Positions 1 to 16,092 of a stretch of DNA of 33,309 nt are shown in pieces. Made by a program: the position numbers and the translations under genes. How positions within the stretch are numbered: the first letter of the stretch is position 1; each line of letters begins with the position of its first letter. The stretch lies in the IMG/VR virus record IMGVR_UViG_3300037963_005570, positions 1 through 33,309 of that record; one strand, 5' to 3'. The notes below the pieces were generated by a model, which did no database searches, was not told where the DNA came from, and was given only the letters and a program-made list of their open reading frames with translations. Source of the stretch: a virus.

Positions 1-12
1 AAGCACATGACC
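1..12. repeat. 12-bp terminal direct repeat (left copy)
   Basis: The first 12 bases, AAGCACATGACC, are identical to the last 12 bases (33298-33309). A 12-bp match exactly at both ends is very unlikely by chance. It indicates a circular molecule with a short assembly overlap, or a genuine short terminal redundancy or cohesive-end sequence. The sequence alone cannot separate these. Confidence 0.85.
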
Positions 13-24
13 CTCGTTTAGTGG

Positions 25-333: not shown

Positions 334-359
334 GTCCTGTCGTCCTTGATTCGTTGTTG

Positions 360-620
360 TGTGTCCCTGCCTGCCCTACCTGTCCCCACCACGTGGCCAG
401 TCGGTAGGGCCGGGTCGTTTTGCCTTGCCCGTGGTGCTTCTCGGTGTCTGTCTGTTCTGGTGGCCCTACTGTCCAGCCGTTTCCTGTCCTCTTCCCTTTT
501 CTTGTTCTCTTCTAAAACTCTTGGAAAAGGTAGGGACAGTGGGGACAGTAGGGAAAAGGGCCATGACCAGCCGATCCCAGCCGGCCCTACCACGGGCCAC
601 AGGTAGGGACAGGTAGGGCC
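360..620. repeat. GTAGGG iteron-like cluster, candidate replication origin
   Basis: The 293-bp non-coding gap 334-626 holds repeated GTAGGG cores in both orientations: near 372, 403, 473, 530, 548, 586, 603 and 613. Several belong to a longer unit resembling AGGTAGGGACAG (529-539, 601-612; inverted near 370-389). An A+T-richer stretch (about 491-530) sits inside and is flanked by a 7-bp inverted repeat, CCTTTTC (495-501) and GAAAAGG (524-530). Iteron arrays with an A+T-rich element beside replication-initiation genes are typical of phage and plasmid origins, and the VapE/primase genes lie immediately next to it. An origin function is inferred. Confidence 0.6.
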
Positions 621-626
621 ACCCGC

Positions 627-3756: not shown

Positions 3757-3770
3757 TGTGTCTTCCCTTG

Positions 3771-5192
3771 TCAGTCTGTGTGTGTGTGGATCCAGCTCGG
3801 GAGCCGGCTTGTGTGTGTCGCGCGGTAGCCGATGGCGTCCGCTCGCTTGTGCTGTGACCTCCTGGCCGCTTGGAACATTTGCACTTTCATCGCCTCATGA
3901 TCTTGGCGCTTCCGCTCCAGCGTCGCCCACACGGACTGTTCAGTCGCAGCCAGGACAATGTCCGCCGTCACCGGGAGCGCTTGTCCGAACCGCCAGAACC
4001 GACGAATCGCCTGATAGAGCATTTCGTAGCTGTAGCTGGGACCGTTGAAGATCGTCCGTGCGCAGTGTTGCCAGTTCATTCCGAACCCGGCGATCTTGGG
4101 CTTCGTCACCAGGACTCGGAAGTCCCCACGGGAAAAGCCGAGTAGCCGATCCCGCTTGACCTTCGACGTCATCCGTCCGGCCACTTCGAGCGCTTCCGGA
4201 ATCCGACCCATGACCGCGTCCGCGTCGTAGTTGGTCTCGCACCAGACCACAATCGGACCCGTCACGTCCGCGACGAGCTCCGCGACCAAGTCCGCCCGGG
4301 CTTGACACGTGCGACGCCGTTCCCGGTGGAGACCAGTCGCCGACAACGTGGGAGCTCGGAACAGCTCCGTCCGGGTCTGGTCCACAATGTCCACCCGGAC
4401 TGGCTGAAGTCGCACGTGGAGCGGTGGCAACACGTACCCGTCGTCGGAGTAGTCGCCGATGTCACTGGGACGGCCGACACACCTTGCCCAGCTCGTGACC
4501 CAGTCCCAGAACGGCCGGACAGCGTGGCCCTTCAACCGGTAGCTTCCGGCTTCCTTCTGGTCCGAGATGAACCAGCGCGCGATCATCTGGTGGGACGTCA
4601 TCACACCCAGGAACTGAGCGTGGTTCCCGAGCTCCAGGTAGTCGTTCGGCGCTGGTGTCGCGGTGCATGCAAGCCGGTACGGGGTGTCGGCGAAGGCCTC
4701 CAACAGGTAGCGCTTCATCGCTCCCATGTACGACTTCAGAATCGACGACTCGTCGAGGACCACACCCGCGAACAGCTCCGCGGGGAACTTCCGCGCGCGG
4801 TCGTAGTTCGTGACAAGTAGCGGCTTGTCCGAGTCTCCTGGCTCCTGTACCTGTTCGATGATGTCGCCGAGTCCGATGGACCGAGCTTCGTCGATCGTCT
4901 GAGCTCCAACCGCCAACGGCGCCAGGATGAGGACTCGGCCGCCGGTGTGCTTGTGGACTTGGCGCGCCCATTCCAGCTGTTGTCGAGTCTTCCCGAGTCC
5001 GGTGTCTTCGAAGAGAGCAGCCCGTCCGAGCTTGCACGCCCACGCGACACAGTCCCGCTGCCACGGCCACAGGTGATCGCCTTCAATCACCGCGTCGAAG
5101 CCATCCGGCGCGACAGTCGGTGTCTTCAGACTCAGGAAGTCCAGATATGGACGCACTTCTCCGCCCCCGCTTCCGCGGGTGTCGTTTGTCAT
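3771..5192 (-). CDS. SNF2-like superfamily 2 DNA helicase/translocase
   Basis: The 473-aa protein has superfamily 2 motifs: FEDTGLGKTR (Walker A, 61-70), VVLDESS (motif II, 144-150), ACTATPAPND (motif III, 175-184), and the C-terminal helicase motif around IRRFWRFGQ (motif VI). The DESS form and the RRFWRFGQ motif are typical of small SNF2-like helicases of phages, which often sit beside a DNA methyltransferase, as here. The role is presumably DNA translocation or remodelling during replication or repair; the exact substrate is not deducible. The ATG at 5190-5192 follows a good ribosome-binding site (AAGGAGAAACAC). The gene is first behind the internal promoter and structured leader at 5237-5341, so it probably opens a separate transcription unit. 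Confidence 0.88.
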   Translation of the reverse strand: MTNDTRGSGGGEVRPYLDFLSLKTPTVAPDGFDAVIEGDHLWPWQRDCVAWACKLGRAALFEDTGLGKTRQQLEWARQVHKHTGGRVLILAPLAVGAQTIDEARSIGLGDIIEQVQEPGDSDKPLLVTNYDRARKFPAELFAGVVLDESSILKSYMGAMKRYLLEAFADTPYRLACTATPAPNDYLELGNHAQFLGVMTSHQMIARWFISDQKEAGSYRLKGHAVRPFWDWVTSWARCVGRPSDIGDYSDDGYVLPPLHVRLQPVRVDIVDQTRTELFRAPTLSATGLHRERRRTCQARADLVAELVADVTGPIVVWCETNYDADAVMGRIPEALEVAGRMTSKVKRDRLLGFSRGDFRVLVTKPKIAGFGMNWQHCARTIFNGPSYSYEMLYQAIRRFWRFGQALPVTADIVLAATEQSVWATLERKRQDHEAMKVQMFQAARRSQHKRADAIGYRATHTSRLPSWIHTHTD

Positions 5193-5236
5193 GTGTTTCT
5201 CCTTGTTGATGACTTCGGCCAGCTGTCCTTCCCTGA

Positions 5237-5277
5237 CCCGTCCCCGGAGCTACCGGGAACGGGCGGTCTTTCGACCG
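5237..5277 (-). ncRNA. Two abutting hairpins in the 5' leader of the helicase mRNA
   Basis: In the minus-strand transcript a 5-bp stem, CGGUC, closed by a GAAA tetraloop (5264-5277) is followed at once by an 11-bp stem. The second stem pairs CCCGUUCCCGG with CCGGGGACGGG around the loop UAGCU (5263-5237) and includes one G-U wobble. The wobble would be a C-A mismatch in a plus-strand RNA, so the structure favours the minus-strand transcript. It lies between promoter 5313-5341 and the helicase start at 5192. No U-tract follows, which argues against a simple intrinsic terminator. A regulatory leader, RNA-stabilising element or processing site is inferred. Confidence 0.55.
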
Positions 5278-5312
5278 GGACAAGGACACACACAGACTCG
5301 GAAGTCCGCGAC

Positions 5313-5341
5313 AGTCTACCGCGCGCGTCCCATTGGGTCAA
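5313..5341 (-). promoter_or_regulatory. Sigma70-like promoter for the helicase-primase operon
   Basis: On the minus strand there is TTGACC (5341-5336), a 17-bp spacer and TAGACT (5318-5313). The -35 overlaps the stop codon of the nuclease gene (5338-5340). The predicted transcript starts near 5306 and gives a leader of about 115 nt before the helicase ATG, containing two hairpins. Spacing and position in a 145-bp gap support the call. Confidence 0.7.
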
Positions 5342-5922
5342 CGTCCCAGCGTGACAGACACCATGGCCGACTGGCCGTGGTGAACCCAGAAGCGCCAGCT
5401 GTCCGGGTCGCTTTTGTCCTGTCTCAGGAACGACGCCCCGTCTTCCGTCAGCTTCCGGTCCTCGAGCTCCCATAGCTTCGTCGGTAGCGGTCCCGTCTCG
5501 CCCGGTGGAGCGCTCACGTCCGGCCAGTGGCCGCGGTGGAGCTGTCCCGGAGTCAGGACCAGACCGCGCCACGGACGCGATCCTGGCGCTATCGGGACGT
5601 CCTGATGTCGCCAGTCATGGCCGAACATAGCTCCGCGGATCTGACGGGCCGCTTGTCTCAGATATCGAGCGTTGTCGCCGTTCTTCAGCTCCACAATCAA
5701 GAACAGCGAAGTGTCCAACGAGTTCAGCTCTCGCGGCACAATCAAAGCGACATCGGAGCGTCGCCGAGTGATTGTGTTCCCGGTCTCCAGCGAGCTCGGC
5801 TTGTATGTCGGCTGTCGAATGACGGGACATCCGAGCGCGGTCATCCGGTCACAGAACCAGTCCTCGAAGTCGCCTTCCGTCGCGAACGGCGTCCAGCGCT
5901 TCTCGCTCTTCCCGTACGTCAT
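5338..5922 (-). CDS. Putative PD-(D/E)XK-fold nuclease (194 aa)
   Basis: The start is placed at the ATG at 5920-5922, which overlaps the upstream exonuclease stop as ATGA. A longer in-frame start at 6096 would overlap that gene by 178 bp and is rejected. The N-terminal half has conserved-looking acidic residues (E16, E20). RRSDVALI (54-61) and IVELKNG (76-82) then give D57-X20-E78-L-K80, the classical catalytic spacing of restriction-endonuclease-like nucleases, and a following helix contains Q90 and QIRG. Such small phage proteins can be recombination nucleases or resolvases. Substrate and polarity cannot be read from the sequence. The setting downstream of a DnaQ-like exonuclease and a UvsW-like helicase favours DNA recombination or repair. 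Confidence 0.7.
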   Translation of the reverse strand: MTYGKSEKRWTPFATEGDFEDWFCDRMTALGCPVIRQPTYKPSSLETGNTITRRRSDVALIVPRELNSLDTSLFLIVELKNGDNARYLRQAARQIRGAMFGHDWRHQDVPIAPGSRPWRGLVLTPGQLHRGHWPDVSAPPGETGPLPTKLWELEDRKLTEDGASFLRQDKSDPDSWRFWVHHGQSAMVSVTLGR

Positions 5923-6491
5923 CGTCTCCACCAGCGTCCGAGCCGGACACGAAGTCGAGTCCACCACGTGGCCCGGTGGAGCAACAGAAAGAGCTTCGTG
6001 GTGTCTTCCGCGTCCCGCGCTGCAGTGTGCGCCCCTTCGAGAGACCAGCCCAGCCAGCGACGGACAGCGTCCAGTCCGAATCGCTTCAGACCACACGGCG
6101 CCAGGTGTTCGATCGCCAGAGTCATTGTGTCGACTCCGCGGAACGGGACGTAGCCTTTGATCCCGTGCCGTCGGTTCACTTCGCGAATCATTCCGAGATC
6201 GAAGCTCACATTGTGCCCGACGGGCATGGTCCGGGAGAGCTTGTCTGCTACGGCGACGCCGACGACATCCCAGCTTGGGGCGTCATCCCATGCGCTCGGG
6301 TCCGCGGCGTAGCCGTTGATCTCGAGCGCTTTCGGGTCCGCCAGGACCAAGTCCTCGTCGGTCGGCTTGACTTTCGAGGTCCAGCGATCGACTACCCATC
6401 CGTCCTCGACGGTCACGATGGCGATCTCCAGGATCGTAGAGCGTAGCGGGGCGAGTCCCGTGGTCTCGGTGTCTATGACGGTGAATCTCAT
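5919..6491 (-). CDS. DnaQ-like DEDDh 3'-5' exonuclease
   Basis: The 190-aa protein shows the exonuclease motifs in order: IDTETTG (6-12, the DxE of motif I), GHNVSFDLGM (92-101, motif II), and HTAARDAED (155-163, motif III with the catalytic histidine five residues before the aspartate). It resembles stand-alone DnaQ/polymerase III epsilon-type proofreading or trimming exonucleases. The C-terminus ends in a strongly basic, tryptophan-rich tail (TWWTRLRVRLGRWWRR, 175-190), possibly a DNA- or membrane-contacting segment. It overlaps the helicase gene upstream and the nuclease gene downstream by ATGA, so all three are translationally coupled. No phage DNA polymerase is present for it to proofread, so a role in recombination, end processing or work with host polymerase is inferred. 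Confidence 0.88.
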   Translation of the reverse strand: MRFTVIDTETTGLAPLRSTILEIAIVTVEDGWVVDRWTSKVKPTDEDLVLADPKALEINGYAADPSAWDDAPSWDVVGVAVADKLSRTMPVGHNVSFDLGMIREVNRRHGIKGYVPFRGVDTMTLAIEHLAPCGLKRFGLDAVRRWLGWSLEGAHTAARDAEDTTKLFLLLHRATWWTRLRVRLGRWWRR

Positions 6492-8167
6492 GGCATCCCT
6501 TCAATGGGCCAGTTCAGTGATCGGTACAGCGAGCGGCGAGCGCTCCACTTCCGTTGTGCCCATCTCCCAGTGTCCACCATGTCCACCACGAGCGGCGGAC
6601 GTTTTCCGTCCATGGCCCGGCATGCGCGTCCGACCCGTTGACGCGTCGCCGGCTTGTGTGAGCTTGGGGCGGCCAGTACCACCGTGTCCAGTTCGGGAAG
6701 ATCCAGTCCTTCATCGGCCAGCTGGGTGGCCACAACCACAGACAGCGTTCCCGAGCGCATAGCGGCCAGCGTCTCAGCTCTCCGCTTCGACGTGACAGAT
6801 CCCACCAGCGCGCGTCCCCCGAGCTCGTCCGCGGTCGCTTCCGCATGGTCCACGAGAGAAGTCAGGACCAGAACCCTCCGTCCTTCGTTGACCAGGTCTC
6901 GGACAGTCCGACACAGGAGCGCTTGCCGGCCGCCGTCCTCGAGTAGGCCTCTCATCGTGTGCGCTGCATGCTCCGCTTCGACGGGCTCGACTCCGGTGTC
7001 CAGTCGCCGGATTGTGGGTCGCATTGTCCGCCCGGCGCTGTCGAGCGTGGACTGTTCGATCCGGTAAACCGTCGGACCCAATGCCAGATGCATCCACGTG
7101 TGAAGGCCATCCTTCCGCTCGGGTGTCGCTGTCAGTCCCATCCGAGACGCACACGGGAGCGCGGACACGACTCGGATCCACGTGACGGCCGGGACATGGT
7201 GGCATTCGTCACAGACCAGCAAGCCGAAGCCCTTCCCGAACTCGGTGAGCTGTTCCCAGCTCCACCGGGCGAGCGTCGCCAGCGATGCGACCACCATGGA
7301 CTCATCCCCGCTCGGGTTCTTTCCGCCCCCGAGCTGTCCGACAACGGCGCCCGGTATCCAGGTCTCTAGTCGCTCTTTCCACTGTCGGACCAGGTCCAAC
7401 GTGTGGACGACCACCAGCGTCCGACCTTCGACAGACGAAGCAAGGAACGTCCCGATTCCGGTCTTCCCAGCTCCACACGGCGCTTCGACGACTCCGTGTC
7501 CGCGCTGCAGTACCGCGGCCACCGCTTCCGACTGATACCAGTATGGCGCGATCCCATCGGCCAGCTCGAGCGGAGTCGTCCGGAGGACCATCGGCGACGG
7601 GTTCCACTCGACCGTCCCGCGGGGCATCCATTCCAGTTCGGTCCCGTCGACGGTCCCAGCTGGGAAGATCCACCGCTCCGGCTCCTGTCCACGCTGGTGG
7701 AATCGCCAGGACAGCCACTTCGGGTTTTCCGTCCGGTGACGAGCTCGGATGTCATGCCAAGCGGAGTCGTTGACGTTCCCAAGCACGAATCCGAAAGAGC
7801 GAGTGATCGGCCACTTCTTCGTCGTCTTCGTCTTCGGTTCGGACTGAACCGCAGCATCCGTCGACGCGACCACCTTCCAGCCCAGCTTGCGGCACTTGTC
7901 CAGCTGGGCAAGTCGACGAATCCGCCAGTCGCGCCACTCGGCGCCGGTGATCTCTCCAGGGTCCGCGGACTCAGTGATTCGTCCGTCTCGCGTGGCGACG
8001 ATTCGGACTCGAGCTGGGACCAGCTGGTACAGGTTCAGCTCCGCTGTCTGGAGCTCTCGGACCCGGCGCTGGCTGTCAAGGAGCGTCCAGCTGTCGCCGT
8101 CGATCTGCACAACCGGAGTCCGAGTGGAACCCCAGCGCGGGACGCCAACGAAGGCGAGCGGAGTCAT
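6488..8167 (-). CDS. UvsW/XPB-like superfamily 2 helicase with a novel N-terminal region
   Basis: The 559-aa protein has a helicase core in its last 350 residues: a Q-motif-like YWYQSEAV (209-216), Walker A VEAPCGAGKTG (227-237), DECHH (320-324), GLTATPERKDG (344-354) and C-terminal QRVGRACR (motif VI). Order and spacing match the UvsW/XPB/RadD-like group, which unwinds branched DNA such as replication forks and R-loops. The first 200 residues are not obviously homologous to anything I know; this region is basic and contains a lysine-rich stretch near 111-119. ATGA overlaps on both sides couple it to the multi-HTH protein and the exonuclease. It is likely the recombination or fork-processing helicase of the phage. 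Confidence 0.85.
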   Translation of the reverse strand: MTPLAFVGVPRWGSTRTPVVQIDGDSWTLLDSQRRVRELQTAELNLYQLVPARVRIVATRDGRITESADPGEITGAEWRDWRIRRLAQLDKCRKLGWKVVASTDAAVQSEPKTKTTKKWPITRSFGFVLGNVNDSAWHDIRARHRTENPKWLSWRFHQRGQEPERWIFPAGTVDGTELEWMPRGTVEWNPSPMVLRTTPLELADGIAPYWYQSEAVAAVLQRGHGVVEAPCGAGKTGIGTFLASSVEGRTLVVVHTLDLVRQWKERLETWIPGAVVGQLGGGKNPSGDESMVVASLATLARWSWEQLTEFGKGFGLLVCDECHHVPAVTWIRVVSALPCASRMGLTATPERKDGLHTWMHLALGPTVYRIEQSTLDSAGRTMRPTIRRLDTGVEPVEAEHAAHTMRGLLEDGGRQALLCRTVRDLVNEGRRVLVLTSLVDHAEATADELGGRALVGSVTSKRRAETLAAMRSGTLSVVVATQLADEGLDLPELDTVVLAAPSSHKPATRQRVGRACRAMDGKRPPLVVDMVDTGRWAQRKWSARRSLYRSLNWPIEGMP

Positions 8168-8883
8168 GACCGGGACCGGAGTAGCTTCATGTGATGATGC
8201 ACCGCTCTCGCGGTGATGGGATACCCGTCCGCCGTCATCGAGTCAGCGATGTCGCGCGCCTTCATCCATGGATAGTCGCGGAGATGGGCCGCCACTTCGT
8301 CCCGGACGGGGGATCGGTCGCACCATGCCGCGCGGGTGTCATCAGCGAATCCAGACGGCCGACAGTCAATGAGTCCGAGTCGGTGCCATCCGTCGTAGAG
8401 CGTGTTGGTCGCGACACCCAGTGCCGCGGCTACCCTGCGAACGGTCGACTCACGAGCTTCGATCTTGCGTCTCGACTCGCGGAGCTCGTCTTCCGTCAGC
8501 GCTTGTTGTCGCCAGGTCGGGTGTCGCCAGGATGGATCGACGGACTGCATCCGTTCCTGTTGAGTCCCGATCCCGAGTGACACCCGGTGGCCGCGGACAC
8601 TTGATGTGTTGAGCTGGATACCCAACTCGGCAAGTCGCGCCGATATCGCGGAATCGCTGAGCGACGGGTCATCAGCAATCACGGAAGCGACTGCAGCGCG
8701 GCTTTTGTTGTTGTGCCGCGGGACCATGGGGATCTCTTCAACGACGCCGAAGAGACGCCACCGGCTCGCGAGCGTTCCACGTGGAATCCCGACAGACGCG
8801 GCCGCTTGAGCCGATGTCATCTCCCCCGCGACTACCGCGCGTCGCAGTCGGACGAGCGTGTCCCGGCTGGTCGGTGGACTCAT
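8164..8883 (-). CDS. Multi-HTH DNA-binding protein (239 aa, four HTH-like units)
   Basis: The start is set at the ATG at 8881-8883 because it overlaps the stop of the next upstream gene as ATGA; a start 12 bp further out is possible. Four helix-turn-helix-like segments can be seen: TSAQAAASVGIPRGTLASRW (23-42), LSDSAISARLAELG (75-88), STVRRVAAALGVATNTLYDG (146-165) and ARDIADSMTADGYPITARAV (209-228). The repeated pattern of A-rich helix, turn and T/R-rich recognition helix suggests binding to extended or repeated DNA sites. No catalytic motif is visible. Candidate roles are origin- or iteron-binding, transcription regulation or a partition-like function; none is proven by the sequence. Confidence 0.65.
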   Translation of the reverse strand: MSPPTSRDTLVRLRRAVVAGEMTSAQAAASVGIPRGTLASRWRLFGVVEEIPMVPRHNNKSRAAVASVIADDPSLSDSAISARLAELGIQLNTSSVRGHRVSLGIGTQQERMQSVDPSWRHPTWRQQALTEDELRESRRKIEARESTVRRVAAALGVATNTLYDGWHRLGLIDCRPSGFADDTRAAWCDRSPVRDEVAAHLRDYPWMKARDIADSMTADGYPITARAVHHHMKLLRSRS

Positions 8884-9110
8884 GCGACCTCCCACGTGGT
8901 CACCAGGCGGAACCCGAAGGCCTGCTCAAACTGGCGCAGCTTGCGCCGGCTCGGGTGCGCTTGACCGCTTGCCCATTTGGACAAGTTGGAGTGATGACAA
9001 AGGCCAAGCCGGCGACCTTCGTTGACCACATTGGTTAAGGTGCCGCGGGCGTCAGGGTCGAGCCCGAGACGCGCGCAGACGGCGCGGTACATGACTTGTC
9101 CGGGGCTCAT
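8880..9110 (-). CDS. Small HTH regulator, paralogue of the protein at 11768-12031
   Basis: The 76-aa protein starts at the ATG at 9108-9110, which overlaps the stop of a 46-aa membrane protein as ATGA. An HTH-like centre (NLSKWASG, about 42-49) is followed by PSRRKLRQF and a C-terminal strand FGFRLVTTW. It aligns over nearly its whole length with the product of 11768-12031. Shared patterns are GQxM, RLGLxPxAxGT, LSxWxxG, PSxRKL and FGFxLVTxW, with about 30 identities in 70 aligned positions by eye. Size and shape fit a Cro-like DNA-binding regulator. In both places it follows a tiny membrane protein. Function is inferred, because the family is not one I recognise by name. Confidence 0.7.
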   Translation of the reverse strand: MSPGQVMYRAVCARLGLDPDARGTLTNVVNEGRRLGLCHHSNLSKWASGQAHPSRRKLRQFEQAFGFRLVTTWEVA

Positions 9111-9247
9111 GCGACTTCCCCGTGTTCCGCCATACAGGCCCACCAGCCGTCATCAGTCCCGGCAAGGTAGCCGACGCGGTAGCCGACCGCGGCCAGTCCA
9201 GCTCCGAGCAAAAGCCACCATAACCAGCTGTGTTGAATGTCCTTCAT
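9107..9247 (-). CDS. 46-aa single-pass membrane microprotein
   Basis: This short gene begins at the ATG at 9245-9247, overlapping the stop of the 72-aa gene by ATGA, and ends in an ATGA overlap with the HTH gene. Such double coupling supports real translation despite its size. The product has a short polar N-terminus (MKDIQHS), a hydrophobic, tryptophan-rich helix with glycines (LWWLLLGAGLAAVGY, 9-23) and a soluble tail with WWAC. A single transmembrane segment is predicted by eye. It may anchor or sense at the membrane, or modulate the co-translated HTH protein. A comparable tiny membrane protein precedes the paralogous HTH gene at 11768. Confidence 0.65.
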   Translation of the reverse strand: MKDIQHSWLWWLLLGAGLAAVGYRVGYLAGTDDGWWACMAEHGEVA

Positions 9248-9462
9248 GTCTGTCCGTTCCCTTGGAAAAGGTCCATCTGGAGCGGTCCCGTGTCCACCGG
9301 TACTGCCCCGTCCACTACGACTCGGGCGACATGCCCGCGTCCCCTGAGTTCTGCCGCTACAGCTTCCGCGGTCGCGACATCGAAGCGAGATCCAGCGCCG
9401 TAGAATCGCCGTCCCCACCAACGGCGATGTCCTCGCCAGTCGACCAGAACGCGCGCGCTCAT
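9244..9462 (-). CDS. Hypothetical 72-aa protein of the recombination operon
   Basis: The start at 9460-9462 is chosen because its ATG overlaps the resolvase stop as ATGA; the longer frame upstream lies inside the resolvase gene. The protein has a basic, tryptophan-rich N-terminus (WRGHRRWWGRRFYGAGSRF, about 9-27). A predicted helix, TAEAVAAELRGRG, and a strand, ARVVVDG, follow. It could be a small nucleic-acid-binding protein, but no family is recognised. Its place in an unbroken chain of overlapping genes between the RuvC-like resolvase and the 46-aa membrane protein makes it very likely a real gene. Confidence 0.6.
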   Translation of the reverse strand: MSARVLVDWRGHRRWWGRRFYGAGSRFDVATAEAVAAELRGRGHVARVVVDGAVPVDTGPLQMDLFQGNGQT

Positions 9463-9947
9463 CGTTGCGACTCGAGCCACGCGAGGACAGCTCCGAGCGC
9501 TTGCCACGCGTGCGACGACACACCGAAGAGCGGACCCGGACTTGCCTTCCGTCCGACAGCTGGCGGTCCACCTGGTGTCTGATGGTCAGCGATGCATGCC
9601 CGCCGGACGCGACTGTCCGCGGAACCAGTCCCGGACATGACGCCGAGCTCGCGAAGTACTTGTCGACGGGTCAGCTCGTGGGTTGGAATGCCAGCCAGCT
9701 GAAAGTTCGCAACCATGCGTCCGCCTTCCCAGGCCGTATCGAGCATATGACCCACCTTCCCAGTGCCGAGTCCCCCCATGGCCGCGGGTCGTTCGATCAC
9801 GGCACGTTCCACTTCGTGGGCTTCAGACTCGTCCATGATGGACATCCAGTCCGCGGACTTGTCCGACCACAGCACACGGCGAGTCACGCTGTCATAGATG
9901 ACAGCGCCATGGGTCACAGGACCGGGATCGACTCCGACGATCACCAC
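9459..9947 (-). CDS. RuvC-like Holliday junction resolvase with an altered last motif
   Basis: The 162-aa protein has the RNase H-fold layout of RuvC: VIVGVDPG (2-9, with the first catalytic aspartate D7), AVIERPAA (49-56, E52), and a C-terminal SSHAWQALGAVLAW (144-157). In typical RuvC relatives the last motif reads HxxDA; here the aspartate position is Q149. D7 and E52 are intact. Catalysis might use another acidic residue, or the protein may bind junctions with reduced cleavage. The start is GTG. Two tandem GTG codons exist (9945-9947 and 9942-9944); the second gives the GTGA overlap seen elsewhere in this genome. It follows the repressor gene directly. Confidence 0.75.
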   Translation of the reverse strand: MVIVGVDPGPVTHGAVIYDSVTRRVLWSDKSADWMSIMDESEAHEVERAVIERPAAMGGLGTGKVGHMLDTAWEGGRMVANFQLAGIPTHELTRRQVLRELGVMSGTGSADSRVRRACIADHQTPGGPPAVGRKASPGPLFGVSSHAWQALGAVLAWLESQR

Positions 9948-10177
9948 GGGATGTTCCGCAGTTCAGCGAGCGCGCCAATCAGCGCGTCCTTCTCATCCGG
10001 CGTCTCGGCCAAGTAGTACAGGAGAGCGGAGAATGTCCCGGTCGACATGACATCCGCCCCACCGTTTTCGTATCGGGAGACCTGGCGCTCGGAGATTCCA
10101 CACAGCTTGGCCAGATCTGCTTGTGAGAATCCACGGCGACGCCGAAGGACGGCCAGCTGTTCTGAAAGGGTATGCAT
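9941..10177 (-). CDS. XRE-family (lambda cI/Cro-like) transcriptional repressor
   Basis: The 78-aa protein is a compact XRE helix-turn-helix domain: GFSQADLAKLCGISERQVSR (16-35) with ENGGADVMSTGTFSALLYYL, the standard five-helix pattern. No C-terminal dimerisation or protease domain follows, so it is Cro-like in size. The ATG at 10175-10177 was chosen over a longer frame because a strong Shine-Dalgarno (AGGAGG at 10191-10186, minus strand) lies just upstream and the extra residues would fall in the promoter region. It is the first gene of the leftward recombination operon and faces the plus-strand operon across a dyad-symmetric promoter region, so it probably controls both and itself. Confidence 0.85.
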   Translation of the reverse strand: MHTLSEQLAVLRRRRGFSQADLAKLCGISERQVSRYENGGADVMSTGTFSALLYYLAETPDEKDALIGALAELRNIPW

Positions 10178-10197
10178 GCGCGATACCTCCTGGCGGA

Positions 10198-10269
10198 ATG
10201 CTACCGGCTCGGAACCAGACGCGCAAGTCGCCTTCTGTCCTTGCGCGTCCGGAATCAGTCCGGTAGTGT
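10198..10269. promoter_or_regulatory. Divergent back-to-back promoters with a nested dyad operator
   Basis: The outer arms CTACCGG (10201-10207) and CCGGTAG (10260-10266) and the inner arms GACGCGCAAG (10218-10227) and CTTGCGCGTC (10240-10249) are perfect inverted repeats. They share one centre, between 10233 and 10234. Rightward promoter: TTGCGC (10241-10246), 17 bp, TAGTGT (10264-10269). Leftward promoter: TTGCGC (10226-10221), 17 bp, TAGCAT (10203-10198). The inner arms contain both -35 elements and the outer arms overlap both -10 elements. A further direct repeat, CGGAAYCAG, lies at 10210-10218 and 10250-10258. It is probably the operator of the XRE repressor. Confidence 0.75.
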
Positions 10270-10290
10270 CTGGAAAGCCAAGGAGCTGGC

Positions 10291-10953
10291 ATGGATGCAA
10301 ACGACTTGATCGGACTCGCGCAAAAGAGCCGATACCTTCGAGCGGTGGACGTGGACGAGAGCTTCAAAGTGACGATCGCCAACGTCACAGTGGAGACGAT
10401 GAAAGCGAAGGGCGAAGAAGAAAAGGAACGCGGCGTCGTCTGGTTCGAAGAAGACGAACGCGGTCTGGTCGTCAATGTCAGTCTCGGACAGATCCTTCGG
10501 GCCATGTTCGGCGTCCATCTCGCGGACTGGACCGGGAAGAGAATCGAGCTCTACAACGACACCAGCGTCCGCGGCAAGTCCGGGAAGGCCGTCGGTGGCA
10601 TCCGCATCCTGTCCAGTCCAGACATCGACTCGGACGTGGTTGTACTGGCTGGAAAGTCGCCGTTTTCCCGTGGCACACAGTACACCGTGAAGGCCGCGGC
10701 GAGCTCGGGACGCCGGAACGACGAAGACACGGACTCCAGCTCGGACAGTCCCCTGTCAGCCGCGCTTCGAAAAGTGGGACTGTCCGTCTCAGACTTCGAC
10801 GCATGGGCCATGTCGGTAGACAAGCCACAGGCACACCAGCTCCACGAAGCGGGTCTCGCTGCGGCCGCGAACTGGGTTCGCCACGTCGGACACAAGGTGA
10901 TCGGTGACTTCATTTATCGCCAGCACGAAGACTCCGATCCGATGGCGGTCTGA
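10291..10953 (+). CDS. Conserved phage protein of unknown function (220 aa), early rightward gene
   Basis: The ATG at 10291 follows AAGGAG (10280-10285), about 15 nt from the predicted transcription start of the rightward promoter. The N-terminal 130 residues form a strand-rich region with VDESFKVTIANVTVETM, GVVWFEEDERGLVVNVS, DWTGKRIELYND and GGIRIL. This pattern recurs in phage early proteins of unknown function and looks like a small beta-barrel, possibly an OB fold. A Ser/Asp-rich linker (about 143-153, DEDTDSSSDS) precedes a helical C-terminal part (155-220). A nucleic-acid-binding role is possible but not shown. It is the first gene of the only plus-strand block and is directly followed by the next ATG. 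Confidence 0.7.
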   Translation: MDANDLIGLAQKSRYLRAVDVDESFKVTIANVTVETMKAKGEEEKERGVVWFEEDERGLVVNVSLGQILRAMFGVHLADWTGKRIELYNDTSVRGKSGKAVGGIRILSSPDIDSDVVVLAGKSPFSRGTQYTVKAAASSGRRNDEDTDSSSDSPLSAALRKVGLSVSDFDAWAMSVDKPQAHQLHEAGLAAAANWVRHVGHKVIGDFIYRQHEDSDPMAV

Positions 10954-11439
10954 ATGAGTGTCCTCCGCTGGCATGTCTTCGGCCGTGGATCTCAGGCCAC
11001 GATCAAGCGCCCATACCACGATCTTGAAGTCCTTCCGCTGGGTGTCGACCGCTGGCAATGGAGAGCGTCCCGGATGGACTCAGCGAACGGCCGGTTCGAA
11101 CTGGTGGAAGCGGGTGTCGAGGACAGCGTGGAGTCCGCCCGTGCGGCCGCCTTCGACGCGGTCATTCGGAACGTGGACTGGTTCGAGCTCATCCGTCGAG
11201 CGCTCCAGACTCACTGGCTGGACACCAGCCAGCTAAACCAGGCACTACGACGGAACCAGTCGCCACCGCTCGGCGCGATGTCTCATCTGGACGCGTTCCA
11301 CTGCCTGGACTGGCTGGAGAATCACCGCGGAGCCGATGTGATCCGATTGTGCGCGGGACCAGTGCTTCCCCTGTTGTTGTTCCTGCCTGCTCAGTACAGG
11401 CCCGCGCCTTCACATCTACAGAATATTCAAAAAGATTGA
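10954..11439 (+). CDS. Hypothetical 161-aa protein, second gene of the rightward operon
   Basis: The ATG follows the TGA of the preceding gene without a gap, so translation is probably coupled. The N-terminal half (RWHVFGRGSQATIKRP...DRWQWRASRMD) looks like a small beta sheet followed by a helix, DSVESARAAAFDAVIRN. The C-terminal half is helical, with LDAFHCLDWLENHRG and a short hydrophobic stretch, PVLPLLLFL (about 137-145). No family is recognised. It ends just before an A+T-rich tract that serves as the upstream part of the next promoter; no clear terminator is seen after it, so some read-through into the downstream genes is likely. Confidence 0.55.
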   Translation: MSVLRWHVFGRGSQATIKRPYHDLEVLPLGVDRWQWRASRMDSANGRFELVEAGVEDSVESARAAAFDAVIRNVDWFELIRRALQTHWLDTSQLNQALRRNQSPPLGAMSHLDAFHCLDWLENHRGADVIRLCAGPVLPLLLFLPAQYRPAPSHLQNIQKD

Positions 11440-11477
11440 ATCAGACCGTTGACGTGTATCCGATCCAGTTGTATATT
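11422..11477 (+). promoter_or_regulatory. Strong sigma70-like promoter with A+T-rich UP-like tract
   Basis: TTGACG (11449-11454), a 17-bp spacer and TATATT (11472-11477) make the closest match to the sigma70 consensus in the window. Immediately upstream is an A+T-rich tract (11422-11442, GAATATTC and the inverted repeat ATTCAA/TTGAAT), unusual for this G+C-rich sequence and at the correct place for an UP element. It would drive the 55-aa, 26-aa and HTH genes. Confidence 0.75.
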
Positions 11478-11526
11478 GATGGGGCGGGAAGGGAAACCGA
11501 CCGCGCCACACACACCGGAGAACACA

Positions 11527-11694
11527 ATGCAGACCATCGAAGTAGGCGACACAGTCCGAGTCAAGCTGCCAAGCGGCGACATTGTCAGTGCCAAGATCCA
11601 GTCCCATACATTCGTCGGCTTTCTGGCGCTGGTAGAAGGCGAGACCAGCGCCCGTATCGTGACCACCTTCATGATCGTTGGCGGTGGCGAATGA
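11527..11694 (+). CDS. 55-aa small beta-barrel-like protein
   Basis: The ATG at 11527 lies about 45 nt downstream of the strong promoter; an upstream in-frame start at 11449 would fall on the promoter itself and is rejected. The sequence VGDTVRVKLPSGDIVSAKI (6-24) followed by FVGFLALVEGETSARIV resembles the alternating strands of SH3-like or KOW-like small barrels, which bind nucleic acid or proteins. A weak purine-rich site (GGAGAA) precedes the start. Its stop overlaps the start of a 26-aa gene as ATGA. The family is unknown. It forms a three-gene cluster with the microprotein and the HTH paralogue. Confidence 0.6.
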   Translation: MQTIEVGDTVRVKLPSGDIVSAKIQSHTFVGFLALVEGETSARIVTTFMIVGGGE

Positions 11695-11771
11695 CCGCTC
11701 GCGAGCACATCGAAGCGGCCGCCGGACTGGCTGTCATCGTGTCCATTTGGTTCCTTGTGATGTCGTCATGA
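11691..11771 (+). CDS. 26-aa membrane microprotein
   Basis: This is one of the shortest plausible genes in the window. Its ATG overlaps the stop of the 55-aa gene as ATGA (11691-11694), and its TGA overlaps the start of the HTH gene as ATGA (11768-11771). The product has a short N-terminal part (MTAREHIEA) and a hydrophobic helix (AAGLAVIVSIWFLVM, about 10-24), enough for one membrane span. Perfect coupling on both sides supports expression. Alternatively it may serve mainly to couple translation between its neighbours. It occupies the same place relative to an HTH gene as the 46-aa membrane protein at 9107-9247. Confidence 0.6.
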   Translation: MTAREHIEAAAGLAVIVSIWFLVMSS

Positions 11772-12031
11772 GCTCACAACCACAGGACCAGACACGTGGC
11801 CAGGCCATGTTCGCCGCGGCTTGTTGGCGTCTCGGACTGACTCCCGGAGCGCCCGGAACACAGAAAGCCGTCCTGGCTCAATGCTCGGACATCTGCACGC
11901 AAGCCCAGCTCAGCGAGTGGTCCACCGGCAAGCGGGAACCATCCGACCGGAAGCTGGCCGAGCTCGGCAAGCGCTTCGGCTTCGAGCTCGTGACGTACTG
12001 GGTTGCCAGCTCTCGTTGGCTGAAAGACTGA
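11768..12031 (+). CDS. HTH regulator, paralogue of the protein at 8880-9110
   Basis: The 87-aa protein starts at the ATG overlapping the 26-aa gene stop. A longer frame beginning at 11678 is rejected because it would overlap two genes. It shares GQAM, RLGLTPGAPGT, LSEWSTGK, PSDRKL and FGFELVTYW with the minus-strand paralogue and has a slightly longer N-terminus and C-terminus. The LSEWSTGKREPSDRKL segment is the likely HTH turn and following helix. It is last in the rightward block, converging on the lysis genes. It probably acts as a small DNA-binding regulator, perhaps of the opposing operons; the target is unknown. Confidence 0.7.
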   Translation: MSSQPQDQTRGQAMFAAACWRLGLTPGAPGTQKAVLAQCSDICTQAQLSEWSTGKREPSDRKLAELGKRFGFELVTYWVASSRWLKD

Positions 12032-12051
12032 CAGACGAAGTCATCGGCTCC

Positions 12052-12082
12052 GCTCTCGGGTCGGAATGTCCGACTCGGGAGC
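12052..12082 (+). terminator. Hairpin between convergent transcription units
   Basis: GCTCTCGGGTCGGA (12052-12065) and TCCGACTCGGGAGC (12069-12082) can form a 14-bp stem with two G-U wobbles and a 3-nt loop in plus-strand RNA. In minus-strand RNA the two wobbles become mismatches. It lies just after the last plus-strand gene and before the end of the convergent lysis gene. No T-tract follows, so termination efficiency is uncertain. Confidence 0.5.
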
Positions 12083-12149
12083 TGGTAGTGACACCCGAAG
12101 CGCAATCACCAGTAGCAGACAGTGGATCGACAGGAGCTTGGCGGTTCGG

Positions 12150-12479
12150 CTACTTCTGGTGGGCGAGATCGCGAATGAGCTGTCCGAGCGTTTCGGTGAG
12201 CTGGCGTAGATCCCGTTGCGTGTCACGCAATGCCTCCAACTGGAGCTCCAGTCGCGTGATTCGCGTCTGGAAGTCCTGAAGCGTGGACGAGTCGGCCGCC
12301 GCGGCCGGTTCCCGTTCCCGTGACAGTAGCTTATCCTTCACTGTGAGGGCAAGGACAGCCGACACCAGGCCGGCCAGTCCGCCGCCTCCGACGCCCCACA
12401 TGTCATGTGCGGTCTGGACCGGGGCTACCGGCGCCAGTTCCTGAGCCCACGCGACGGCCATCAGTAGCGACCAGATCAC
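12150..12479 (-). CDS. Membrane protein with coiled coil, holin candidate
   Basis: The 109-aa protein begins with GTG (12477-12479), whose GTGA overlaps the stop of the upstream 78-aa gene. The N-terminus is hydrophobic (MIWSLLMAVAWAQE) and could be a signal anchor or a cleavable signal ending AWA. A second hydrophobic segment (MWGVGGGGLAGLVSAVLALTV, 27-47 with its neighbours) is followed by a heptad-like charged helix (LQDFQTRITRLELQLEALRD and onwards, 66-105). One or two membrane spans plus a coiled coil, immediately downstream of the endolysin gene and last in the late operon, fit a holin or other lysis-timing protein. A spanin role is a weaker alternative. Confidence 0.6.
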   Translation of the reverse strand: MIWSLLMAVAWAQELAPVAPVQTAHDMWGVGGGGLAGLVSAVLALTVKDKLLSREREPAAAADSSTLQDFQTRITRLELQLEALRDTQRDLRQLTETLGQLIRDLAHQK

Positions 12480-12712
12480 TTGCTTTTTTCCACCTGGTCA
12501 AGGACACCGGATCCAGCGATGACACCAGCGACGAAGTCTTCACGGACTTCGTCGAGTGCTTCGACGAGTAGTGCTATCGCTTGATCGGACAAGGCTTCGA
12601 CAAGCGCCGAGCGCGGTTCAATCATCCTGTCGAGCGCTCTCCGGAGCACATTCCGTCGCCCTTGAGCGATCGCTTCTCCCGCGTCGTATGCCGGGTTCCC
12701 TGGTCGGCTCAT
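12476..12712 (-). CDS. Hypothetical 78-aa protein in the lysis cluster
   Basis: The ATG at 12710-12712 has a strong ribosome-binding site (AGGAGG) which itself overlaps the end of the endolysin gene. The protein is mostly helical: RRNVLRRALDRM (20-31), a hydrophobic-acidic helix ALSDQAIALLVEALDEV (39-55), and a C-terminal FVAGVIAGSGVLDQ. It has no clear transmembrane span. It stands between the endolysin and the holin-like gene and is coupled to the latter by GTGA. A lysis accessory role is suggested only by position. Confidence 0.5.
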   Translation of the reverse strand: MSRPGNPAYDAGEAIAQGRRNVLRRALDRMIEPRSALVEALSDQAIALLVEALDEVREDFVAGVIAGSGVLDQVEKSK

Positions 12713-12721
12713 TCCGTCCTC

Positions 12722-13129
12722 CTATCGGTCGATCTGGTAGTGTGGACCGTCCGGGAACGACTTCCATTCCGCTCCACAGACGAGATTCCCGGACACGCGC
12801 CCCGCGGCCCGGAGCTGTCGCCACTTCGACTTGACGAAGCGGACGAGCGGCCAGTAGTCGTCCCAGTCCCAGGACACAGCTCCGTTGATGTAGGGCGCTG
12901 CGTCGACGGCCATGGACGGAGTCGAGTTGTGCTTGGAGCGCGGCCACCGGAGCTGGCTTTTCCCAGTCCTGTACATCTCGTCCTGTCGTGCTTCCCCGCG
13001 GTGGCCTTCCAGGATCGTGATGTCCGACGGGCATTCAGGGTCCGCCAGTACTTCCGTGAACAACAGGACCAAGTCCGGGTCGCATGTGTTCAATCGCTGC
13101 AGCGACCGTGAGCTGTAGCGGTAGCCCAT
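12722..13129 (-). CDS. Endolysin: M15-family L-alanoyl-D-glutamate/DD-peptidase
   Basis: The 135-aa protein carries the zinc-peptidase pattern of phage M15 endolysins: SKHNSTPSMAVDAAPY (65-80; H67 and D76 as zinc ligands) and GPHYQI (128-133; H130 as third ligand), with EGHR (41-44) in the position of the substrate-binding motif. It would cut peptide cross-links or stems in peptidoglycan at lysis. The start ATG at 13127-13129 overlaps the upstream stop as TGATG; an in-frame start 15 bp further upstream is less likely. No signal peptide or binding domain is seen, so release through a holin is expected; the next genes encode a small protein and a holin candidate. Confidence 0.88.
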   Translation of the reverse strand: MGYRYSSRSLQRLNTCDPDLVLLFTEVLADPECPSDITILEGHRGEARQDEMYRTGKSQLRWPRSKHNSTPSMAVDAAPYINGAVSWDWDDYWPLVRFVKSKWRQLRAAGRVSGNLVCGAEWKSFPDGPHYQIDR

Positions 13130-13416
13130 CAGTCCGCCGCCCAAGCGGTAACCGCTGCAGTGATTCCCAAGTCATCCAGGTGACTCTTCAGAACTGGCGA
13201 CGAGCTCCCCGCGTCAATCCGAGCTCGTATGTCTTCCCGGACGGATTCGGCCAGCCCGTACGCGACTCCACCGGTGGCGAAGTAGACAGCCAGTCCGTTG
13301 GCGTCTTCAAACTGCATCAGCGGGGCTTCGAGAGCTTGCCACGCGTCAGCGTGGACCACCGGCAAGTCATCGGGTCCATACGCGACTTCGACGACTCGGA
13401 GTGTGGTGTCGCTCAT
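13129..13416 (-). CDS. Hypothetical 95-aa protein after the fibre-like gene
   Basis: The ATG (13414-13416) overlaps the stop of the fibre-like gene as ATGA, and the stop overlaps the endolysin start as TGATG. The sequence begins with predicted strands (TLRVVEVAYG, PVVHAD) and continues with LAVYFATGGVAYGL and a charged helix, ESVREDIRARID. The C-terminal 30 residues include a second helix and TAAVTAWAA. It has no signal peptide or transmembrane span. Position suggests a virion-tip protein or a chaperone for the fibre, but no family is recognised. Confidence 0.6.
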   Translation of the reverse strand: MSDTTLRVVEVAYGPDDLPVVHADAWQALEAPLMQFEDANGLAVYFATGGVAYGLAESVREDIRARIDAGSSSPVLKSHLDDLGITAAVTAWAAD

Positions 13417-14204
13417 TGCTGTTTCCTTTGGACGAGAGTTCGAGTCAACGTGAAGTCGCTGGCGTCGCCCGCGCTGATGAAACAGCGAAGGCCGTTGCCC
13501 TGGTAGTCGGGGGTAGCTTGTGCCAAGCCGACACTGTCCGCACCGATCATCAGCGTCCCAGCGGCCGCGGGCGCCGGTGTCGGTGGTGTTGTTCCACTCG
13601 TGTCCATCACCTGAACAATCTCACCGCCGGTGAGAATCAGCGTAAAGACTCGACTCGTTTTGATGGCTGTGGTTGCCTGAATCGCTGAAGCGCTGGTGTT
13701 CCTGCGGACGCGGATTTTCTCGTTTGTGCTATCGTTAGCGTCTTCGACGAAGATCATCCTCGCTATGCCGCTGTTGTGCGTCGTCGTACTGCCGCGGTTC
13801 AGACCGCAGTACACCGAACTATTGCCCGCGCTCGTGTATACCAAGCTCGTGATCACGATGTGGACAGCGTATTGGTAGCCTCGGACGTCCGCTACGGTAT
13901 AGCTGTCGAACAACGGGTCCAGATCGATCGACAGCGTCAGCGTCCCGCTGGTGTCGGTGCCACCGTCCATCACCATGCCGGTGCCGTTGGTCGGAGTCAC
14001 CGTCCCGTTGGCGCCGGAATAGGTCGACACGTCGACACCGACAGACTTTCCGGACACCGATATGGTGTGACTTCCGTTGGCCAAAGCGCTGGCATTGTCC
14101 ACGCTGGTCCAGTCGAGATCGACCAAGTCGGTCCAAGTTGCACCACCTCCACCGCCACCGCCACCGCTCGCGGGGCTACCTCCGATCGTGTCCAGACTTC
14201 CCAT
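13413..14204 (-). CDS. Putative tail fibre/receptor-binding protein with polyglycine linker
   Basis: The 263-aa protein begins with a short N-terminal segment (MGSLDTIGGSPAS) followed by eight glycines (14-21), a flexible hinge common in phage fibres. The remainder is rich in Thr, Ser, Gly and Asn with alternating strands (GTLTLSIDLDPLFDSYTV, YQYAVHIVITSLVYTS, RVFTLILTGGEIVQV) and looks like a beta-sandwich such as a concanavalin or jelly-roll fold. A C-terminal GNGLRCFISAGDASDFTLTR continues the sheet. A glycan- or receptor-binding role is inferred from composition and from its place between tail-tip and lysis genes. The homologous fold cannot be named. Start ATG at 14202-14204 with GGGGAA upstream. 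Confidence 0.55.
   Translation of the reverse strand: MGSLDTIGGSPASGGGGGGGGATWTDLVDLDWTSVDNASALANGSHTISVSGKSVGVDVSTYSGANGTVTPTNGTGMVMDGGTDTSGTLTLSIDLDPLFDSYTVADVRGYQYAVHIVITSLVYTSAGNSSVYCGLNRGSTTTHNSGIARMIFVEDANDSTNEKIRVRRNTSASAIQATTAIKTSRVFTLILTGGEIVQVMDTSGTTPPTPAPAAAGTLMIGADSVGLAQATPDYQGNGLRCFISAGDASDFTLTRTLVQRKQQ
14148..14170. repeat. Glycine-codon microsatellite in the fibre-like gene
   Basis: On the plus strand CCACCG-type triplets repeat (CACCTCCACCGCCACCGCC and neighbours), encoding the eight-glycine hinge of the fibre-like protein on the minus strand. Near-identical triplets can change in copy number by slippage without shifting the frame, which would alter hinge length only. Confidence 0.6.
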
Positions 14205-14207
14205 GGA

Positions 14208-14510
14208 TCATTCCCCTTGAGCGGAGATGTAGACCACCGAACCAGACGCCGCGCGGACTTCGATGGTGTAGTCCCTCCGGTCCCGGTTTCCGTGTCGCGT
14301 CCACACACGAGTCCATGAGTCCGCGGCCGCTGGCACGAATCCAGCCGCGGCCGTGTTGCTCACGCGCCACTCGAACGCGGCGTTCACCCGGACGTGTAGT
14401 TCGCGGTCCTGTGGCCCGACGGTGATGATCGTGGTGACAGTGCCACCGCCGGAGAGGGTCTCGGAGTCAGTCCACGGTCTGAGCTCCTGAGTCGAGATGT
14501 CAATGGCCAT
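14208..14510 (-). CDS. Hypothetical virion/tail-tip protein (100 aa)
   Basis: The ATG (14508-14510) has AGGTGAG just upstream. The sequence is strand-rich: TVTTIITVGPQ (24-34), ELHVRVNAAFEWRVSN (37-52) and RRDYTIEVRAASGSVVYIS (about 78-96), with WTRVWTRHG in between, as expected for a small beta-sandwich. It lies between the hub-like protein and the fibre-like protein and is three bases from the latter. A tip, decoration or adaptor role in the tail is likely from context. No family is recognised. Confidence 0.6.
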   Translation of the reverse strand: MAIDISTQELRPWTDSETLSGGGTVTTIITVGPQDRELHVRVNAAFEWRVSNTAAAGFVPAAADSWTRVWTRHGNRDRRDYTIEVRAASGSVVYISAQGE

Positions 14511-14565
14511 CGGCTCACCTGGTGTCGGGGGAACGTGTCACGGGCAGATCGTATCACGGCCCGTT

Positions 14566-16092
14566 TCAGTATTCGGGCAGAATGATCACTCGGAGTGTCT
14601 GAGCGACGGGCGACAGGTAGTCGCGGGCAACGAGTCCGAGCCGGTCATCTATGCCAGCTCCGGCGTATGTCACTGTGACCACGTCCCCGTCGTGTAGCTC
14701 ATCATACTCTCCGGTGATGTCCTGGAGCTCCACGTACCGGGTCACCAGTCCTCGGACAGATCGCCAGTGCAGGACCAGGAAAGCGGTGGAGATGTCGCCG
14801 ATCCAGGACTCTTCCATGGTCTCCAGCGCGTCGCCAACGAGTGTCTTCGCCCGGTGGACGACTCGCGAGCTCGTGGACGCGTAGCCGATGGGCTGGTCTG
14901 GTGACACGATGAGAGACACGCGTGAGTCGCCGTCAGACAGCATTGAAGTCGACAGCTGCAGTCTCGAGCGGACCTTGTCGGTCTCATGGACAATCCGCCC
15001 CGGCATGGTCACACCAGGACCAACTTCGATGTGCCGGATCGCGTCCGAGTGTCGAGCGTCATACCGCCACGGAATCAGACGGAGCTTTCCCGCGTCGTTC
15101 TGAACCGACACAGGCAGCATCCCGAGAAGACCGTCCGTAATCAACCGCCACGGACTGGTCGGCTCCACAATGAACCCAGAAACGGCGAACCTGTTCAGCC
15201 AGCTCTTCCACGCGAGTAGCCCGCTGTAGTCGACGGGAATCTGGAATCGCGACAGAATCCACGTCAGGAGATCACCAGCTCCAGCTCGGCTACCGTCCGG
15301 CACGGGGTACGACTGTCCGTCCGTCCACGCGACAGCGAACGAGTCAGCGCCGAGAGTGATCGTGGACGCCCCGCTGACGTCCACCACGGACACGAGCTGT
15401 CCAAGTCCGTCCGCTTGATGACTCACGGTGAATGTCTCGCGGAGCGAACCAGTCACGATTGTGACCTGGGACGCGGACACGGCATGACCAGCAATGAGCA
15501 GTGTGGCGGCGTTCGCTCCGCTCCGCTTCACTACCCGAGCTGGAGATCCCTTCTCGAAGTCGAGGATCCCCGGGAATGTCCGAATGGCCCATGCAGGCCG
15601 TCCCCAGACCACCGGATACCATGGTTCGCCTTCGTGATCCCCCTGCGGCCAGGTGTCGTCCGTGACTCTCCATGTCTGGAGATGAGTCGAGCCGGAGTCC
15701 TCCCATGGAAGACCTTCCACAGTGAACGCCACTGGCTGGTCCGGTGGACCGTACTCGGGTTCAGTCGCCGATCCGGACGCGACCACCTTCCGCTCGGCGT
15801 ACGGGGTGCCACTCGTCCACAGCGATACTTCCGCAGTCGCGTCCTGGAATCGGTGACCAGCTGCCACGATGTCCGCGAGCGGATCGTCCGGTGGCCATGA
15901 GACCTCGAGCGAGACCGAAGCTACCGACGGACGCTGTTTGAACGGGTCAAAGTCGCTCGGAGCTCGTAGCTCGGGCAGTCCTCCGAGATGAGGTAGCGAC
16001 TTCCCGTCCGAGTCCACCGGCGCGACAGGTGTGTCCGACCACCGGAACACACGTCCAGCGAACTCGAGCCGGACCAGCCAGTGAACGGACAT
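14566..16092 (-). CDS. Tail hub/baseplate-like protein (508 aa)
   Basis: The ATG (16090-16092) overlaps the stop of the large tail protein as TGATG. The sequence alternates strand-rich domains. The first 130 residues (HWLVRLEFAGRVFRWSD..., SVASVSLEVSWPPDD) resemble a hub-type beta domain. The middle (about 180-330) contains YPVVWGRPAWAIRTFPG and LLTWILSRFQIPVDYSGL. The last part has SPWRLITDGLLGMLPVSVQ, repeated short strands and VELQDITGEYDELHDGDVVTVTY near the C-terminus. The order of domains is reminiscent of tail hub (gp27-like) proteins that sit below the tape measure. The exact family is inferred from size, order and these patterns. Confidence 0.6.
   Translation of the reverse strand: MSVHWLVRLEFAGRVFRWSDTPVAPVDSDGKSLPHLGGLPELRAPSDFDPFKQRPSVASVSLEVSWPPDDPLADIVAAGHRFQDATAEVSLWTSGTPYAERKVVASGSATEPEYGPPDQPVAFTVEGLPWEDSGSTHLQTWRVTDDTWPQGDHEGEPWYPVVWGRPAWAIRTFPGILDFEKGSPARVVKRSGANAATLLIAGHAVSASQVTIVTGSLRETFTVSHQADGLGQLVSVVDVSGASTITLGADSFAVAWTDGQSYPVPDGSRAGAGDLLTWILSRFQIPVDYSGLLAWKSWLNRFAVSGFIVEPTSPWRLITDGLLGMLPVSVQNDAGKLRLIPWRYDARHSDAIRHIEVGPGVTMPGRIVHETDKVRSRLQLSTSMLSDGDSRVSLIVSPDQPIGYASTSSRVVHRAKTLVGDALETMEESWIGDISTAFLVLHWRSVRGLVTRYVELQDITGEYDELHDGDVVTVTYAGAGIDDRLGLVARDYLSPVAQTLRVIILPEY

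Follow-up and report, generated by a model that had tools for sequence, protein, structure and literature searches.

Single-gene exchange at overlapping stop/start codons as a probable source of two microprotein-regulator pairs in a phage early operon

Two small gene pairs were analysed in a stretch of viral DNA, IMG/VR virus record IMGVR_UViG_3300037963_005570, positions 1-33,309. This whole stretch of 33,309 bases is called the window. Each pair consists of a tiny hydrophobic gene followed by a gene for a helix-turn-helix (HTH) protein. On the minus strand, TM1 (9107-9247), encoding a hydrophobic microprotein of 46 amino acids (aa), precedes HTH1 (8880-9110), encoding a 76-aa XRE-like predicted DNA-binding protein. 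On the plus strand, TM2 (11691-11771), encoding a 26-aa one-span microprotein, precedes HTH2 (11768-12031), which encodes an 87-aa relative of HTH1 and is the last gene of its operon. A sequence-only reading had taken the pairs for a duplicated module. We consider the region to be probably an accessory, mosaic part of the early operon of a tailed phage and not a duplicated module. Related phages appear to exchange genes singly and precisely at overlapping stop/start codons. TM1 is the fixed left neighbour of a variable slot, and HTH1 is the present occupant of this slot. The window has helicase, primase, methyltransferase, exonuclease and large terminase genes of phage type.

The four open reading frames (ORFs) and the 4-nucleotide (nt) ATGA overlap within both pairs were confirmed. 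The two HTH proteins are indeed related, with 31 of 70 residues identical (44%) and an E value of 6e-20 in a single pairwise comparison. Homology between the two copies is thus found in the HTH half of the pair and not in the microprotein half. The TM1 and TM2 profiles, which are short and shallow, do not match (hhalign probability 0.4%). Therefore, the claim of a duplicated module fails for half of the module. Duplication was ruled out by this mismatch together with the recently acquired look of HTH1. The best reading is that HTH1 and HTH2 are relatives that a mosaic operon acquired separately and not products of a duplication in this genome. Both microprotein genes are real and conserved. 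The nearest relative of the window at this locus is L009, with 89% and 92% identity over long stretches. Against L009, the proportion of synonymous differences (pS) in TM1 is 0.33 and that of non-synonymous differences (pN) is 0.03; TM2 shows three synonymous and no non-synonymous differences. Of the one-span topology claimed for both, that of TM2 is clear (Kyte-Doolittle maximum of 2.25 over 17 residues), while TM1 is only moderately hydrophobic (1.42). The shared ATGA overlap was also tried as a special mark of the pairs. It was rejected, as 4-nt overlaps are found at 9 of the 12 junctions of the minus operon in our own list of 13 genes, running from a Cro-like gene (start 10177) to a helicase-like gene ending at 627. 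ATGA overlaps are reported to be abundant in prokaryotes, and 13 of the 14 pairs tested there were strictly coupled (PMC6728339).

The history of HTH1 appears to differ from that of its surroundings. The HTH1 genes of the window and L003 are identical at 225 of 228 nt (98.7%, pS 0.04), whereas the adjoining TM1 genes have a pS of 0.77. Three other aligned segments between the window and the examined L003 locus have 70-75% identity. The similarity between the two spans from 9154, in the tail of TM1, to 8873, just past the HTH1 stop codon. HTH1 is absent from L009. The alignment of L009 to the window stops at 9102 and resumes from 8896, and a 141-aa gene lies between. Between L003 and L004, 28 of the 228 bases of HTH1 are different, and alignments longer than 27 nt between the flanks of L003 and L005 show 85-88% identity. 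Therefore, HTH1 looks inherited within the clade of L003, L004 and L005 and recently moved into the window lineage, a direction that we infer. Given the near identity of HTH1 to the L003 gene and the strong divergence of the TM1 genes next to it, HTH1 seems to have moved without the TM1 body. The HTH2 genes of the window and L009 are identical at 256 of 261 nt.

The ends of HTH1 carry GGGAAGTCGCATGAG and GGGAGGTCGCATGAG, which form a direct repeat of 18 nt with 89% identity. The left junction (9103-9120, minus strand) is one copy, with a Shine-Dalgarno-like run and the ATGA overlap. The right junction (8876-8893, minus strand) is the second copy and has GGGAGGTCGCATGAG at 8879-8893. The junction 15-mer contains both the Shine-Dalgarno-like GGAGGT and the ATGA overlap; therefore, a gene flanked by it provides its neighbour with a start site or leaves one in place. 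In L003 and L009, the exact 15-mer flanks the slot gene at either side. An exchanged gene is expected to carry the repeat at both ends and an empty site to hold a single copy, and this was the arrangement found. The empty site is L021, which corresponds to L003 without HTH1 and has one junction copy; L003 7862-8008 and 8218-8531 align to L021 5933-6079 and 6062-6366, so that 18 nt of L021 are common to both alignments. The 13-mer core is not over-represented in the window, as 11 matches with up to three mismatches were counted against 16 expected. The only two near matches (0 and 1 mismatch) are those around HTH1. This junction pair is also the most alike among the 55 junction pairs of the window, agreeing in 11 of 13 columns against a mean of 4.4. 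Similarity between related genomes changes abruptly at gene borders. In ten contigs, 126 of 186 slot alignment ends fell within -13 to +10 nt of a gene start, a range that covers 13.2% of positions. Whole genes likewise distinguish the HTH2 operons of the window and L009, and one breakpoint falls at 11690, the start of TM2. Between the window/L009 type and the short types of TM1, the 3' end is less diverged than the rest of the gene, which favours a conserved 3' anchor for recombination. A scan of IMG/VR for the 15-mer returned 83 stretches, many possibly due to chance, and was not used as evidence; only L059, L079, L111 and L113 were aligned further, and L059 did not match L003, L006 or the window.

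The microproteins were followed through other viral records. The TM1 sample was the window and relatives from 12 other viral records (n=13), and the TM2 sample was the window and relatives from five others (n=6), excluding a TM2-like ORF noticed by eye in L003. The HTH family sample was eight genes in seven records, window included. Two candidates were left out of it and treated as chance. In L008, 34 residues matched, and the profile gave 16.5 bits; the frame opens right after a stop codon, lacks the first half of the domain and contains the exact search string FEQAFGFR. In G010, the record of L020, the match (E 0.009) lies inside a 781-aa open frame. L018 and L019 are the records of L006 and L003, and L014 is the record of L009. 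TM1 overlaps the following gene by 4 nt in all 13 records. That gene is HTH1 in five (window, L018, L019, L004 and L005), and the other eight have six other kinds of next gene. They are a 141-aa gene in L014, a 139-aa gene in L015, an 89-aa gene in L016 and L017 that begins with residues similar to the first ones of the 141-aa gene, an 81-aa gene in L021, a 205-aa gene in L022 and L023, and a 149-aa gene in L020 (L020:3915-4364). The last is weakly like the DNA-modification protein Mom (E 1.2e-5; 25.5 bits, just under the Pfam cut-off of 27.1). The 139-aa gene looked HNH-like by eye, yet it had no Pfam match at E 0.01 and was left unnamed. TM2 is followed by an HTH gene in the window, L009 and L007 and by another gene in L025, L004 and L005, and in L004 and L005 TM2 does not overlap its next gene. 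An HTH gene is therefore next in only 5 of 13 TM1 records and 3 of 6 TM2 records, which argues against a dedicated microprotein-HTH unit. The TM1 of L009 is 96% identical to that of the window and has another gene behind it. The microproteins are not dedicated to HTH genes, though each HTH gene found has one upstream.

Among GenBank phages, no near DNA match to window 1-20000 was found; the best match of HTH1 had only an E value of 0.2, that of TM1 0.7, and HTH2 had none. The genome contigs searched for HTH and TM1 gave no match. Rfam returned nothing at gathering scores, and PDB sequences gave a single match, to a designed component (E 0.012).

Several observations weigh against the exchange of single genes at such junctions. 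The right flank beside HTH1 is only 82% identical between the window and L009 over 900 nt. In the short-type TM1 genes (L003:7873-8001 and others), synonymous divergence is 0.17 in codons 2-28 and 0.51-0.55 in codons 29-43; this high 3' divergence fits poorly with a conserved 3' anchor. The alignment ends, taken from ordered pairs, lack independence; gene borders are where homologous genes stop in any event, and one L006 start was 3 nt off in the count. Erf, a recombinase that such exchange may use, was identified in L003 (88 bits against a cut-off of 25) and not in the window, where most proteins went unscanned for it. Every HTH gene found (8/8) is preceded by a microprotein. The sequence-only reading would have been refuted by HTH homologues lacking an upstream hydrophobic microprotein, and none appeared: all eight lie directly behind TM1 (five) or TM2 (three) with the 4-nt overlap. 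L003 and L006 also share TM1 and HTH1 as a single 371-nt block between unlike neighbours, and the TM2-HTH pair is kept in the distant L007 at low identity. Because of this shared block and this retention, a functional link between microprotein and HTH protein is possible. In such a pair the microprotein would tether the regulator, sense for it or antagonise it, coupled translation would set their ratio, and two unrelated microproteins would have been recruited to one HTH family. We regard this explanation as unlikely. The eight HTH genes come from few lineages, with the same HTH1 protein in L004, L005 and L006. No HTH gene is next in 8 of the 13 TM1 and 3 of the 6 TM2 records, the gene behind the nearly identical TM1 of L009 is a different one, HTH1 reached the window lineage without the donor TM1 body, and further hydrophobic micro-ORFs occur nearby. 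Taken together, the sequence-only interpretation is partly supported. A third tiny hydrophobic ORF was seen directly after HTH1, with a GTGA overlap, at L004:4554-4619, L005:3688-3771 and L006:8228-8311; it has 27 aa in L006, is cut by the contig end in L004, and is placed in L005 by near identity to L006.

Two further explanations concern one HTH gene each. Phages assembled together could have been joined by error, which would make the HTH1 insertion an assembly chimera. In favour of this, the virus records are metagenomic, the window and L003 share 98.7% identity in HTH1, and the nearest relative L009 has no HTH1. Since both flanks are of the window/L009 type, however, a chimera needs two joins, both in frame, no more than about 230 nt apart and located at repeats of about 15 nt, and replacement at the same slot is seen in other contigs. 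It is hardly credible. The HTH2 operon, on the other hand, could be an accessory operon of the acr-aca type, in which variable small genes (here a 55-aa gene and TM2) are closed by a small HTH autorepressor. The operon does have a strong promoter-like site, a variable first gene and an HTH gene at the end. Its sigma70-like promoter, TTGACG-17-TATATT (11449-11477, plus strand), is aligned with L009 and L007, and the 55-aa gene (11527-11694, plus strand) is replaced by two other ORFs in L009. An inverted repeat within the core promoter, an HTH gene downstream of small genes and an anti-CRISPR gene serve as criteria for acr-aca operons (PMC9410906). The gene order resembles this description, as small variable genes precede a small HTH gene, but the promoter has no inverted repeat, HTH2 has no Aca match, and the operon has no known Acr, a search aimed at Acr genes not having been made. 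No inverted repeat was found at 10 nt in window 11400-11540, and inverted repeats with 7-nt arms numbered 0 in the window promoter and 1 in L009, which is the chance level. Therefore, the Aca reading fails one defining test. HTH2 gave no usable match in Pfam, NCBIfam, PHROGs or PADLOC, in which the coverage of each Aca family is unchecked. We consider this explanation very improbable. Toxin-antitoxin systems were searched for in PADLOC only and gave E values of 0.04-0.05. The promoter and leader (window 11468-11529) are 85% identical over 62 nt to L007, where a second copy was seen by eye about 470 nt further on (L007:1700-1800 and L007:2180-2280), each before a small gene.

The most likely predicted role of HTH1 is that of a small repressor. 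Its AlphaFold model is a four-helix domain with a mean predicted local distance difference test (pLDDT) score of 90, and the structural neighbours are mostly XRE/Cro-type phage repressor domains. HTH1 differs from clear members in the strength of the matches. The best VIA Z value was 7.4 (root mean square deviation 1.8, 60 residues, 7t8i), below the value of 8 that the tool calls safe; Foldseek was weak (best E 0.24), and Pfam scores were under the cut-offs (HTH_31, 19.9 bits against 27). At the positions that we take from 434 repressor to contact bases, HTH1 and HTH2 have different residues. Therefore, they are likely to have different operators.

A mosaic early operon, the explanation that we prefer, would be built in the following way. 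TM1 and TM2 are two tiny conserved genes, unrelated to each other, that stay in place as the genes beside them are exchanged. The near-identical 15-nt junctions at both ends of HTH1 would allow gain, loss and replacement with the frames and start sites of the neighbours intact, and HTH1 may have arrived by recombination at such a junction. Short homology and the recombinases of the phages themselves, namely the Erf of L003 and the RuvC-like resolvases of both, provide a plausible route. HTH2 would be the relative that has resided longer, in a small operon of its own. Each HTH protein is probably a small XRE/Cro-type repressor, with operators that differ between the two, and its translation probably re-initiates after the microprotein; the microproteins probably act independently at the membrane. 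If so, the locus gives a base-resolution picture of one-gene mosaicism in a tightly packed overlapping phage operon, in which about 15 nt serve as translation signal and exchange joint at once. It also cautions that a compact pair of microprotein and regulator with an ATGA overlap is not necessarily a functional module.

The locus was compared with the closest known systems. In the Cluster I mycobacteriophages Island3 and Brujita, repeats at the 3' ends of adjacent genes flank a single gene that is gained or lost, and replacement of a gene at its borders is described (PMC3029335). As here, one small gene is present or absent between repeats, and a gene is replaced at gene boundaries. Their repeat, however, is about 50-60 bp of 3' coding sequence with one case shown, whereas the present repeat is about 15-18 nt with a ribosome-binding-site-like run and the ATGA overlap, and several alternative slot contents are found. 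The Start Associated Sequences (SAS) of Cluster K mycobacteriophages are 13 bp long, occur in 11-19 copies per genome and were proposed to serve translation (PMC3203893). They too are short repeats of ribosome-binding character at the starts of different non-structural genes, and rRNA pairing alone does not explain them; here, there are two copies around one gene, and the breakpoints lie on them. Our case joins the features of both, as ribosome-binding site and stop/start overlap together make up the repeat and several different genes can fill the slot. In lambdoid phages, Rad52-like recombinases, an Erf among those tested, outdo RecA on short or diverged homology (PMC3945230). The likeness lies in short or diverged homology being enough for mosaic exchange; this was measured in E. 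coli, and we infer it here. A literature search, with subscription journals mostly outside its coverage, found no naming of a repeat of ribosome-binding site and ATGA as a cassette joint. A wider proposal can be made tentatively, with doubt outweighing belief. The junction may itself serve repeatedly as a joint for recombination, being a short repeat at the end of one gene and the start of the following one. With such a repeat, single genes could be inserted, deleted or swapped behind an invariant tiny membrane gene, with both frames and the following start site kept intact. It would form a natural scarless cassette slot, which single-strand annealing recombinases would drive and which would supply accessory regulators and anti-host genes. 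The slot behind TM1 is a cheap hunting ground for new small phage accessory genes.

Other genes of the minus operon surround the slot. Its right neighbour (8164-8883) encodes a 239-aa protein with HTH-like segments and is conserved in L009 with 78.6% identity. A 72-aa gene (9244-9462) with an L009 homologue lies upstream of TM1 and has an ATGA overlap at each side. It follows a gene for a RuvC-like Holliday junction resolvase (9459-9944, start at 9944 or 9947; phrog_1770, E 3.9e-6). The first gene of the operon (9941-10177) encodes a 78-aa Cro/CI-like HTH protein (Pfam HTH_31, 51.3 bits against a cut-off of 27). In L017, an 83-aa gene (L017:2155-2406) looks by eye as if the beginning of the 141-aa slot gene had been fused to the end of the 81/82-aa gene; therefore, exchange can fall within genes too. 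The divergent control region has an inverted repeat (window 10201-10266) with 27-nt arms of 74% identity, in which GACGCGCAAG and CTTGCGCGTC match exactly. Its arms are kept in L009 and the spacer is partly different. It is a likely operator, though the count of short inverted repeats in this region is at chance level. On the plus strand, a 161-aa protein (window 10954-11439) is 36% identical over 67 aa to the product of the 82-aa gene behind HTH1 in L003 (L003:8228-8476); therefore, related genes lie on opposite arms of the control region.

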